From Escarpia spicata (Eukaryota; Annelida; Polychaeta; Sabellida; Siboglinidae): a DNA stretch of 64,000 nucleotides. Made by a program: the position numbers and the translations under genes. The notes beneath the pieces are model-generated. The model searched no databases. It was given only the letters and a program-made list of their open reading frames with translations, and was not told where the DNA came from. Shown in pieces: positions 3,301 to 60,900 of the stretch (its first letter is position 1; every line of letters starts with the position of its first letter). Where the stretch lies: positions 53,014,139 to 53,078,138 of the forward strand of contig OZ023213.1 of NCBI GenBank assembly GCA_963995525.1, in the 5' to 3' direction.

Positions 3301-6300
3301 GACCTTAATTGCGATGTGGCTGTATTACTACTGTACCTACTGTCAAGATCCACGTACTAATTATAAACAGTGATGGTGGCATGTTAATTGTATAATCATA
3401 GTTATTGTAAACTATGTTTGTAAACATTAGTAGTATGGATGTTATTATGTGTCCTTTGGATGTGATGTGTCATACCACTGTTATATAATCAATATTGACC
3501 TTCAATCTGAAAATTTTTTAAAATGTTCAAGTATTAATTCAGGGGGGCGGAGGGGTGTCTGAGAATTAGTATGTTCTATACAAATAAAAGTAATGAATCT
3601 AGGTAAATGTTGACAACTGTGAATGCCCTTAAATACACTTAAACAGTATGATTAAACATCATAATTTCTACACGAATCATCAACACAAACAGTAAAGGGG
3701 ATATTGAATAACTAAAAACAAGTACCTAACCTACATTTTATTGCCTCACACTTTTGAATGTATTTCTATTTTCTACTGACCTGAGCCTGTTGGTCCGTAG
3801 GCAAAGACGCATGCGTTGCGTCCTTCTAGGACATCGGTGACAAGAGTTCGCGCACATCCCTCATAGATCAAGGCCTGTCCCGTCTCAGGCCCATAGACCT
3901 GCTCAAATCTACAACACAGACAGTGTGAACATAGACCTCCTCAAACCTACAATACAGACAGTGTGAACATAGACCTCTTCAAACCTACAATACAGACAGT
4001 GTGAACGTAGACCTGCTCAAACCTACAATACAGACAGTGTGAACATAGACCTGCTCAAATCTAAAACAGAGACAGTGTGAACATAGACCTGCTCAAACCT
4101 ACAACAGAGACAGTGTGAACATAGACCTGCTCAAATCTAAAACAGAGACAGTGTGAACACAGACCTGCTCAAATCTAAAACAGAGACAGTGTGAACATAG
4201 ACCTGCTCAAACCTACAACAGAGACAGTGTGAACATAGACCTGCTCAAATCTAAAACAGAGACAGTGTGAACATAGACCTGCTCAAATCTAAAACAGAGA
4301 CAGTGTGAACATAGACCTGCTCAAACCTACAACAGAGACAGTGTGAACATAGACCTGCTCAAATCTAAAACAGAGACAGTGTGAACATAGACCTGCTCAA
4401 ATCTACTACAGACACAGTGTGTATCCACTCCAATCTAGATCTGCTCAAATCTACAAATGACACCTTCCTTCCTGATGACGTCATCACTATAAGTCGACCT
4501 TCCAGAGTTCGACTCTATCTGCTCTCATCTCTCATCTAATCATTTTGTCACCTCTGGAACAATTCCATCACAGTTGTTCTCCATGGGTAAGATATCTCTG
4601 CCGTGCAATGGCAAAAGGGTGCAAGTGACAACGAGGTGCTTTTGAGATATCGGACAAAACGCGTTTTTCTTTTGCGCACTTTTGCATATTATGCCTCAGC
4701 AATTATTTCCAATTGGATGAACTACTTGATTATGTGTATTTATAAGAATGACTAGTACTCCGGGTTTTACAGAGTGTTTGGTGACTTAGTGTCACTTACT
4801 CCCTTTTGTCATTTTATTAGGCGATCGATATCGAAACAATTCTATGACAAAAGGAAGCAAGTGCTATTAAATCATGTCAGAACGAACTACAACTGGAGCT
4901 GGCAATTGTGTATTTATAAGAATGACTGTTATATGTCAGTACTTCGGGTGTTACAGAGTGTCTGGTGACTTAGTGTCACTTACTCCCTTTTGTCATTTTA
5001 TTAGGCGATCGATATCGAAACAATTCTATGACAAAAGGAAGCAAGTGCAACTAAATCATGTCAGAACAAACTATAACTGGAGATGGCAAAATTATATCGA
5101 AAAATGACAGTATACAATCGTTAAAACACAATTTTAATCACTAAGTTGAATTACTGGTAAACCAAATTAAATCGGTCAGTCGATTTATTATGATGTCTCT
5201 CGGGGATACCAATTGACAAACTTGCAGTTTCGTATTAACATTTAAATTGACATTTTGTTTTAAAGCAGCAATTAAACAACAGCATAGAAACAAAAGCTAC
5301 GGCAGTTAAGGCAGTCGTCATTGTTTCACTCGGAGTCAATCATGTCGACAGAAGTGTCACTGATAGGCAGGCCGCTCCAGAACTCTGTTCATTGGCATCA
5401 ACGGACCAAGCTTCCTCACAATGTCATCGCGCTTGCTGTGGCACACCACGAGGTCCGTCTTTCACATCGAAAGTTCTTCCTCCGAGAAGATGTGTCGCTA
5501 TCGTTTTCATAAGGAATTCCCCCGACTGGAACTCATCTTCCGTCAACGCGCATTTCCAAAAGAGTTTGCTTGACCCCCTTCTGAATTGTGCCACGCTCAC
5601 GTGTCCCAACGTCGGCTTCTTCGTAGATTTTGCCGAACTGATACCATTTTCCCAAGAATGAAAATCTGCATGATTCAAGAGAACGACGGTTCCAGATTTG
5701 CTTATAACGCTTGCAAAATCCGAGATGTCGTAGACATTCTTCTTTGACCTCATACCTTTCTCGACCTGTGCATGAAAGGAGTCGGCTGACATGAAAGTGT
5801 GTCCTTTCTCAAGATACTTCATAGTGATGGTGTGTGGGCCCCCTGGCTGACTGACCTCACTCACCATTCCCGTGATGGTGTGTGGGCCCCCTGGCTGATT
5901 GACCTCACTCACCATTCCCGTGATGGTGTGTGGGCCCCCTGGCTGACTGACCTCACTCACCATTCCCGTGATGGTGTGTGGGCCCCCCGGCTGACTGACC
6001 TCACTCACCATTCCCGTGATGGTGTGTGGGCCCCCTGGCTGATTGACCTCACTCACCATTCCCGTGATGGTGTGTGGGCCCCCTGGCTGATTGACCTCAC
6101 TCACCATTCCCGTGATGGTGTGTGGGCCCCCTGGCTGATTGACCTCACTCACCATTCCCGTGATGGTGTGTGGGCCCCCTGGCTGATTGACCTCACTCAC
6201 CATTCCCGTGATGGTGTGTGGGCCCCCTGGCTGATTGACCTCACTCACCATTCCCGTGATGGTGTGTGGGCCCCCTGGCTGATTGACCTCACTCACCATT

Positions 6301-57900: not shown

Positions 57901-60900
57901 AACCATCCCTTCAATACATCATACAAACATCCAAGTACTGCAGGATGTAAGTTTGTTAACCATCCCTTCAATACATCATACACACATCACGCACAAACAT
58001 CCAAGTACTGCAGGATGTAAGTTTGTTAACCATCCCTTCAATACATCATACACACATCACACACAAACATCCAAGTACTGCAGGATGTAAGTTTGTTAAC
58101 CATCCCTTCAATACATCATACACACATCACACACAGACATCCAAGTACTGCAGGATGTAAGTTTGTTAACCATCCCTTCAATACGTCATACACACATCAC
58201 ACACAGACATCCAAGTACTGCAGGATGTAAGTTTGTTAACCATCCCTTCAATACGTCATACATCACACACAAACATCTAAGTACTGCAGGATGTAAGTTT
58301 GTTAACTATCCCTTCAATACATCACCCATCACACACAGACATCCAAGTACTGCAGGATGTAAGTTTGTTAACCATCCCTTCAATACATCATACACACATC
58401 ACGCACACACATCCAAGTACTGCAGGATGTAAGTTTGTTAACCATCCCTTCAATACATCACACATCACACACAAACATCCAAGTAATGCAGGATGTAAGT
58501 TTGTTAACCATCCCTTCAATACATCACACATCACACACAAACATCTAAGTACTGCAGGATGTAAGTTTGTTAACTATCCCTTCAATACATCACACATCAC
58601 ACACAAACATCCAAGTACTGCAGGATGTAAGTTTGTTAACCATCCCTTCAATACATCACACATCACACACAAACATCCAAGTACTGCAGGATGTAAGTTT
58701 GTTAACCATCCCTTCAATACATCATACACACATCACACACAAACATCCAAGTACTGCAGGATGTAAGTTTGTTAACCATCCCTTCAATACGTCATACACA
58801 CATCACACACAAACATCCAAGTACTGCAGGATATAAGTTTGTTAACCATCCCTTCAATACATCATACACACATCACGCACACACATCCAAGTACTGCAGG
58901 ATGTAAGTTTGTTAACCATCCCTTCAATACATCACACATCACACACAAACATCCAAGTAATGCAGGATGTAAGTTTGTTAACCATCCCTTCAATACATCA
59001 CACATCACACACAAACATCCAAGTACTGCAGGATGTAAGTTTGTTAACCATCCCTTCAATACATCACACATCACACACAAACATCCAAGTACTGCAGGAT
59101 GTAAGTTTGTTAACCATCCCTTCAATACATCATACACACATCACACACAAACATCCAAGTACTGCAGGATGTAAGTTTGTTAACCATCCCTTCAATACGT
59201 CATACACACATCACACACAAACATCCAAGTACTGCAGGATGTAAGTTTGTTAACCATCCCTTCAATACATCATACACACATCACACACAAACATCCAAGT
59301 ACTGCAGGATGTAAGTTTGTTAACCATCCCTTCAATACATCATACACACATCACACACAAACATCCAAGTACTGCAGGATGTAAGTTTGTTAACCATCCC
59401 TTCAATACGTCATACACACATCACACACAAACATCCAAGTACTGCAGGATGTAAGTTTGTTAACCATCCCTTCAATACATCATACACACATCACACACAA
59501 ACATCCAAGTACTGCAGGATGTAAGTTTGTTAACCATCCCTTCAATACGTCATACACACATCACACACAAACATCCAAGTACTGCAGGATGTAAGTTTGT
59601 TAACCATCCCTTCAATACATCATACACACATCACACACAAACATCCAAGTACTGCAGGATGTAAGTTTGTTAACCATCCCTTCAATACATCATACACACA
59701 TCACACACAAACATCCAAGTACTGCAGGATGTAAGTTTGTTAACCATCCCTTCAATACATCACACATCACACACAAACATCCAAGTAATGCAGGATGTAA
59801 GTTTGTTAACCATCCCTTCAATACATCACACATCACACACAAACATCCAAGTACTGCAGGATGTAAGTTTGTTAACCATCCCTTCAATACATCACACATC
59901 ACACACAAACATCCAAGTACTGCAGGATGTAAGTTTGTTAACCATCCCTTCAATACATCATACACACATCACACACAAACATCCAAGTACTGCAGGATGT
60001 AAGTTTGTTAACCATCCCTTCAATACGTCATACACACATCACACACAAACATCCAAGTACTGCAGGATGTAAGTTTGTTAACCATCCCTTCAATACGTCA
60101 TACACACATCACACACAAACATCCAAGTACTGCAGGATGTAAGTTTGTTAACCATCCCTTCAATACATCATACACACATCACACACAAACATCCAAGTAC
60201 TGCAGGATGTAAGTTTGTTAACCATCCCTTCAATACGTCATACACACATCACACACAAACATCCAAGTACTGCAGGATGTAAGTTTGTTAACCATCCCTT
60301 CAATACGTCATACACACATCACACACAAACATCCAAGTACTGCAGGATGTAAGTTTGTTAACCATCCCTTCAATACGTCATACACACATCACACACAAAC
60401 ATCCAAGTACTGCAGGATGTAAGTTTGTTAACCATCCCTTCAATACATCATACACACATCACACACAAACATCCAAGTACTGCAGGATGTAAGTTTGTTA
60501 ACCATCCCTTCAATACATCATACACACATCACACACAAACATCCAAGTACTGCAGGATGTAAGTTTGTTAACCATCCCTTCAATACGTCATACACACATC
60601 ACACACAAACATCCAAGTACTGCAGGATGTAAGTTTTTTAACCATCCCTTCAATACATCACACATCACACACAAACATCCAAGTACTGCAGGATGTAAGT
60701 TTGTTAACCATCCCTTCAATACATCATACACACATCACACACAAACATCCAAGTACTGCAGGATGTAAGTTTTTTAACCATCCCTTCAATACATCACACA
60801 TCACACACAAACATCCAAGTACTGCAGGATGTAAGTTTTTTAACCATCCCTTCAATACATCACACACAAACATCCAAGTACTGCAGGATGTGCCTCAACC

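Follow-up and report, generated by a model that had tools for sequence, protein, structure and literature searches.

We analysed a 64 kb stretch of DNA, hereafter the window (C10:53,014,139-53,078,138), from a 1.06-Gb annelid assembly, in which minisatellites lie at the splice junctions of two adjoining genes, ERK and KIF22. Coordinates below are window positions, and junctions are abbreviated as e4D for the exon 4 donor, e9A for the exon 9 acceptor, and so on. ERK (24830..60989, forward strand) has 11 exons encoding 365 amino acids from ATG to stop, with the untranslated regions outside the mapping; human MAPK1 aligns to residues 7-356 of the assembled protein at 697 bits. On the reverse strand lie exons 1-4 of KIF22, whose best PDB match is KIF22 (E 5.7e-12); exon 1 occupies 17605..17797, with an uncertain 5' end at 17797, and exon 2 occupies 3781..3908. 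We take KIF22 and MAPK3 to be close together on human 16p11.2 as well. Junctions were predicted from the genomic sequence by frame-continuous joining of the exons of ERK and exons 1-4 of KIF22, giving 28 distinct junctions in the window: 20 in ERK (counting the two candidate acceptors of exon 11 as one) and eight in KIF22, one of which is the uncertain 5' acceptor. ERK is complete and in frame when the exon-proximal sites are used, and exons 5 and 6 of KIF22 also join in frame.

The first-pass annotation had described seven minisatellites in these genes, and Tandem Repeats Finder located all seven at the places and with the periods claimed. They are separate arrays whose units are unrelated to each other, and donors and acceptors are both affected, as had been noted. 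In most of them the unit contains the gene's own exon edge together with adjoining intron, the copies extend head to tail into the intron, and the protein frame is kept by the copy closest to the exon body. The wording that they start exactly on the junctions was inexact: most do not, and their units carry ~7-48 exon bases.

Two of the seven belong to KIF22 and read on the reverse strand. At e1D, an array of ~83 copies of a 65-bp unit (12226..17605) abuts the donor, with the first intron base at 17604; its unit begins GTAAGT and shares at most ~7 exon bases, imperfectly. At e2A (3892..4421; 38 bp, 14 copies), each unit joins 21 intron bases to 17 exon bases. The other five lie in ERK on the forward strand. 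The e4D array (37722..38040; 65-75 bp, ~4 copies; first intron base 37770) has 48 exon bases per unit, and an extra copy lies beyond it at ~38826-38879. At e7D (40928..42312; 33 bp, ~41 copies; first intron base 40946) the unit is made of 18 exon and 15 intron bases, and the reading frame of exon 7 stays open through to 41392. The largest array, at e9A, spans 12 kb (43884..55956; 45-47 bp, ~264 copies; first exon base 55950) and includes ~7 exon bases per unit; units that have AG (46-47 bp) and units that lack it (45 bp) are laid out in blocks. Exon 10 is flanked on both sides, by a 20-bp array at e10A (57303..57519; ~11 copies; first exon base 57513; ~7 exon bases per unit) and by a 70-bp array at e10D (57615..60928; ~45 copies; first intron base 57637; 22 exon bases per unit). 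Almost the whole of ERK introns 8 and 10 is array sequence.

To score copies spanning a junction, we locally aligned a 40-base window across it to 400 bases of the intron concerned and compared the result with 400 shuffles. Eight of the 28 window junctions beat all 400 shuffles: ERK e4D, e7D, e9A, e10A, e10D and e11A, and KIF22 e1D and e2A. The KIF22 e1D case is weak, given its few imperfect exon bases, and ERK e2D (11/400 shuffles) and e6A (22/400) were marginal. The e11A case, which is additional to the original seven, is a duplication of two copies only (60969..61021, forward strand) that places the first exon base at 60979 or 61014, 35 bp apart; both copies yield an identical Leu-stop end. 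Among five further KIF22 junctions outside the window one was positive, e5D (score 80, 0/400 shuffles), where eight copies of an in-frame 66-bp unit (stretch L034, 7817-8352) carry 53 exon bases each. The 10 intron bases after GTT at this donor resemble the exon bases just upstream (8/10, by eye), and the exon-derived part of the unit may thus total 63 bases; it looks as though the duplication joint created part of the donor. Altogether, the affected donors are those of ERK exons 4, 7 and 10 and KIF22 exons 1 and 5, and the affected acceptors those of ERK exons 9, 10 and 11 and KIF22 exon 2.

As 56% of the intronic DNA in the window is array sequence, an overlap between arrays and junctions by itself proves nothing. 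Likewise, a near copy was present at 47% of 3000 random window positions, which makes a raw count of junctions inside repeats uninformative. We therefore relied on two null models. In the first, 21 arrays (microsatellite runs excluded, overlapping rows merged) were moved at random within their own introns in 60,000 runs. At zero distance, seven junctions were abutted or spanned, against a mean of 0.32 and a maximum of 3, so that 0/60,000 runs reached seven; within 10 bases the count was 8 vs 1.84, and within 25 bases 10 vs 2.89. This null favours the finding, since without their arrays some introns would not be long. In the second, strict model, each array was collapsed to a single founder unit and placed at random: seven were observed vs 2.65 expected (P 0.0015). 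Six were left when KIF22 e1D was removed (P 0.011), and four vs 1.42 (P 0.03) when introns 8 and 10 were removed as well. We conclude that the excess of arrays at junctions in the window is real but moderate.

As a comparison we used 66 junctions from 17 stretches of 16 genes, one CC2D2A-like and the rest kinesins, with the junctions positioned by visual inspection at splice signals close to family matches; many of these genes are compact, with few arrays. One of the 66 junctions had a clear spanning copy, a decayed two-copy acceptor duplication with ~23 exon bases in a kinesin gene (stretch L040, ~base 479) that was matched by 0/4000 shuffles. An acceptor in stretch L028 was marginal (score 20, 5/400, spanning), as was a donor in stretch L042 (score 22, 8/400, not spanning). 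The gene of stretch L013, which we read as CC2D2A, contains six arrays over 120 bases, and 0/12 of its tested junctions were spanned; a 67-bp array there (4687-5264) stops 3 bases before an exon and includes no exon bases. With the junctions outside the window counted, KIF22 and ERK have 9 of 33 junctions spanned vs 1 of 66 elsewhere (Fisher P 1.7e-4; 5.5e-4 without KIF22 e1D). Minisatellite coverage averaged ~9% in 18 random 10-kb pieces of the genome. Among the 55 arrays in these pieces, GTRAGT occurred in 3 vs 1.7 expected and an acceptor-like motif in 3 vs 6.0; among the 34 arrays in the window the corresponding counts were 7 vs 1.2 and 1 vs 4.6.

The explanation that we favour, with a probability of about 0.6, is that these are mirage-type minisatellites in an annelid, which arose when tandem duplications across junctions were tolerated and the copies within the intron were later amplified. 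Short tandem duplications, by slippage or unequal exchange and some perhaps via short matches, would arise throughout introns, their edges included. A duplication across a junction would be tolerated, since the copy next to the exon remains functional and the surplus copies leave with the intron at splicing. Later rounds would then amplify the intronic copies, lengthening the intron while the decoy sites drift. Some observations weigh against this explanation. Relative to the comparison set, cases are more concentrated in KIF22 and ERK than tolerance alone would predict, with the proviso that the window was selected for its arrays. The excess under the founder null, with or without KIF22 e1D, also exceeds that prediction. 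Finally, of three units tested for uniqueness in the genome, one, that of KIF22 e1D, failed.

A process directed at splice sites is possible, and the evidence decides neither way. Under this explanation, which we consider unlikely though it survives best among the alternatives, junctions are hot spots at which transcription or splicing by the major spliceosome (through pausing, R-loops or nicks) raise the rate of exon-edge duplication. The several cases across two adjacent genes and the seven arrays observed, vs 2.65 expected under the founder null, speak for it, but that null already expects 2-3. The first-pass annotation had suggested a process acting at splice sites in general, and the single spanned junction among the 66 sampled elsewhere lends no support to this at the scale of the genome; nor are donor motifs clearly enriched in the arrays of the random pieces. 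R-loops, which had been put forward as a possible cause, were rejected as a general one because the sign of the coding-strand GC skew is not constant: over six arrays (ERK e4D left out) it ranged from +0.30 to -0.45, positive in five and -0.45 in ERK e10D.

A contrast between intron types bears on the same question. Introns 3, 5 and 6 of ERK (34427-37579, 39510-40340 and 40413-40865) begin with GTATCCTTT or GTATCCTTG, and a CCTTGAC-like or TTTAAT motif occurs shortly before each of them ends. From these donor starts and motifs the three introns look U12-type, and we treat them as putative. Minor introns are described as enriched in MAPK genes in the available part of one report (PMC6865273). 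None of the six putative U12-type junctions was clearly spanned, vs 8 of the 22 others; the difference is not significant (Fisher 0.10), and one of the six, the acceptor e6A, was itself borderline. We regard this U2/U12 contrast within ERK and the KIF22 part of the window as a lead only. A broader proposal seems to us more doubtful still. Under it, major-spliceosome junctions of two or more animal phyla would be intrinsic hot spots of tandem duplication, and introns would be extended at their edges through copies of the junction itself, while U12-type junctions of the same gene would be spared.

It is improbable that the arrays in general began as satellites, either dispersed or carried by transposons, that inserted into introns and were then recruited as splice sites. 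The units at ERK e4D, e7D and e10D and at KIF22 e2A and e5D hold 17-53 bases of their own gene's coding sequence, and two of them matched only their own locus among the matches listed. A genome search with the ERK e10D unit gave at least 48 matches, and 48/48 of those listed fell in its own array; the ERK e4D query gave at least five, and 5/5 of those listed fell within the window, including one that lies 0.8 kb beyond the array. The KIF22 e1D unit behaved otherwise. It had at least 228 matches in the genome, and every listed match outside the window lay at C10:0.35-0.84 Mb; in one example there (stretch L035) the 65-bp family adjoins clustered kinesin-like exon copies, and the flank is repeated and looks transposon-borne. 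Because the family is dispersed and only ~7 imperfect bases are shared with exon 1, the e1D array is probably a minisatellite captured at the donor and not one born at the junction: an incoming dispersed minisatellite whose first GTAAGT probably now serves as the donor. The first-pass view that a process, and not one transposon, acts at splice sites has to be qualified for this unit.

We observed that many, but not all, repeats retain a splice signal; the counts that follow include the true sites. Intact GTAAGT was counted 76 times in the KIF22 e1D array and 46 times in that of ERK e10D, and three copies of CTCAAGGTAGG lie within and just past the ERK e4D array. GT was kept in 26/41 units at ERK e7D, the signal being lost in 15/41, and AG in 14/14 units at KIF22 e2A and 9/11 at ERK e10A. 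At ERK e9A, 104 units were of the AG type vs 157 reading TATCC (261 classed); by another rule the numbers were 102 and 152 of 263. The claim of hundreds of decoy sites is therefore right in sum, but the sites are unevenly spread, from 3 at ERK e4D to the 104 AG-type units at e9A.

Selection could in principle retain such decoys because they regulate splicing or supply protein variants, an explanation that we hold to be improbable too. The 33-bp and 66-bp units keep frame, so that use of a decoy at ERK e7D or KIF22 e5D would add 11- or 22-residue repeats, but the units of 20, 38, 65 and 70 bp break it and AG is missing from most ERK e9A units. We compared the divergence of the splice columns with that of circular shifts of the unit in six arrays (ERK e4D left out). 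Few shifts were less divergent than the splice columns at ERK e10A (0/20) and e10D (1/68), where these columns are among the most conserved, but many were at ERK e7D (28/33) and KIF22 e2A (36/38), where they are among the least; KIF22 e1D (18/65) and ERK e9A (11/45, distorted by a one-base misalignment) complete the six. A gradient in which units nearer the exon are more exon-like was found only at KIF22 e1D (rho -0.49), the other five being not significant. Since variability at the splice columns shows no consistent difference from that at the other positions of the unit, the retention of decoys by selection that had been suggested was not seen, and the data fit passengers better than selected elements. 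An assembly artefact or chance is very improbable: long arrays are difficult to assemble and their copy numbers may be wrong, but differing units occur at several junctions of two genes, and at the five junctions with 17-53 exon bases per unit the scores are 54-80, whereas shuffles reached maxima of 27-31 at four of them and 0/400 attained the score of the fifth.

Our favoured reading, tolerated duplication across junctions, places these arrays next to the mirages of amphioxus, exon-boundary minisatellites described in the accessible text of two papers for Adh3, the globins BflGb6 and BflGb9, PGBD5 and troponin C (PMC3087553, PMC3902484). The likeness to them, which the first-pass annotation had pointed out, is borne out in print. 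In both systems the unit spans the exon-intron boundary, 5' and 3' boundaries are both affected, and the signal is present in many but not all repeats. Mirages are normally spliced at the exon-proximal copy, and the continuous reading frames of ERK and KIF22 are compatible with such use here. The annelid arrays are mirages on a larger scale, with up to ~264 copies and 12 kb compared with the 3-6 copies given for BflGb6 in the same excerpts. They further differ from the amphioxus cases as available there in belonging to another phylum, in that a single gene has several affected junctions and in that one array comes from a dispersed family. Among the top-ranked results of a search of open-licence PMC literature, mirages were described only for amphioxus.

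Two other systems share some of these features. Earthworm metallothionein genes are likewise annelid and contain intronic minisatellites, which fill intron 1, and one clone has exon 4 duplications that are absent from the transcript (PMC12783039); the portion of that paper available to us makes no mention of units spanning junctions and does not describe the exon 4 duplications as tandem minisatellites. Models of intron gain (that of Rogers, cited in PMC3087553, and a potato RdRp case, PMC4974935, each consulted as extracts) also invoke tandem duplication that copies splice signals. Here, unlike in those models, existing introns grow, and no new intron was seen. That an annelid carries mirages, with several in each gene and lengths of up to 12 kb, makes them a candidate for a general mode of intron growth. 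Such arrays also offer a natural test of how cells choose a single splice site when dozens of nearly identical ones lie close by, and long-read genomes allow counting for both questions.

The assignment of the genome to an annelid was examined separately. The erythrocruorin linker family PF16915, which we take to be annelid-specific, had six matches in the genome (best 6.6e-22); the best exon translation had no PDB chain match at E 0.001, and a PDB search with a 51-residue string was likewise negative. Amphioxus possesses GFP genes, and no PF01353 (GFP) match was found in the genome, a weak negative as the control also matched nowhere. On the mitochondrial contig (15.9 kb) the gene order is nad1-nad3-nad2-cox1-cox2-atp8-cox3-nad6-cob-atp6 (cox1 identified by its Pfam match, the other genes by inspection of translations), which differs from the amphioxus order, and amphioxus was rejected as the organism. 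The observed order has been described for annelids, according to the part of PMC2639372 available to us.

Additional features were observed around KIF22. Its intron 1 holds pieces of an endonuclease (PF14529) and a reverse transcriptase (PF00078) at 8500-9129 and 10850-11635 on the forward strand. The same intron contains, on the reverse strand at 5424-6698, a 48-bp array of 15 copies, 99% identical and in frame within an open reading frame, the unit of which includes the donor-like motif GGTGAGT. Lastly, a second kinesin exon at C10:52899740-52899949 covers the profile range 264-327, as does a KIF22 motor exon ~112 kb away.

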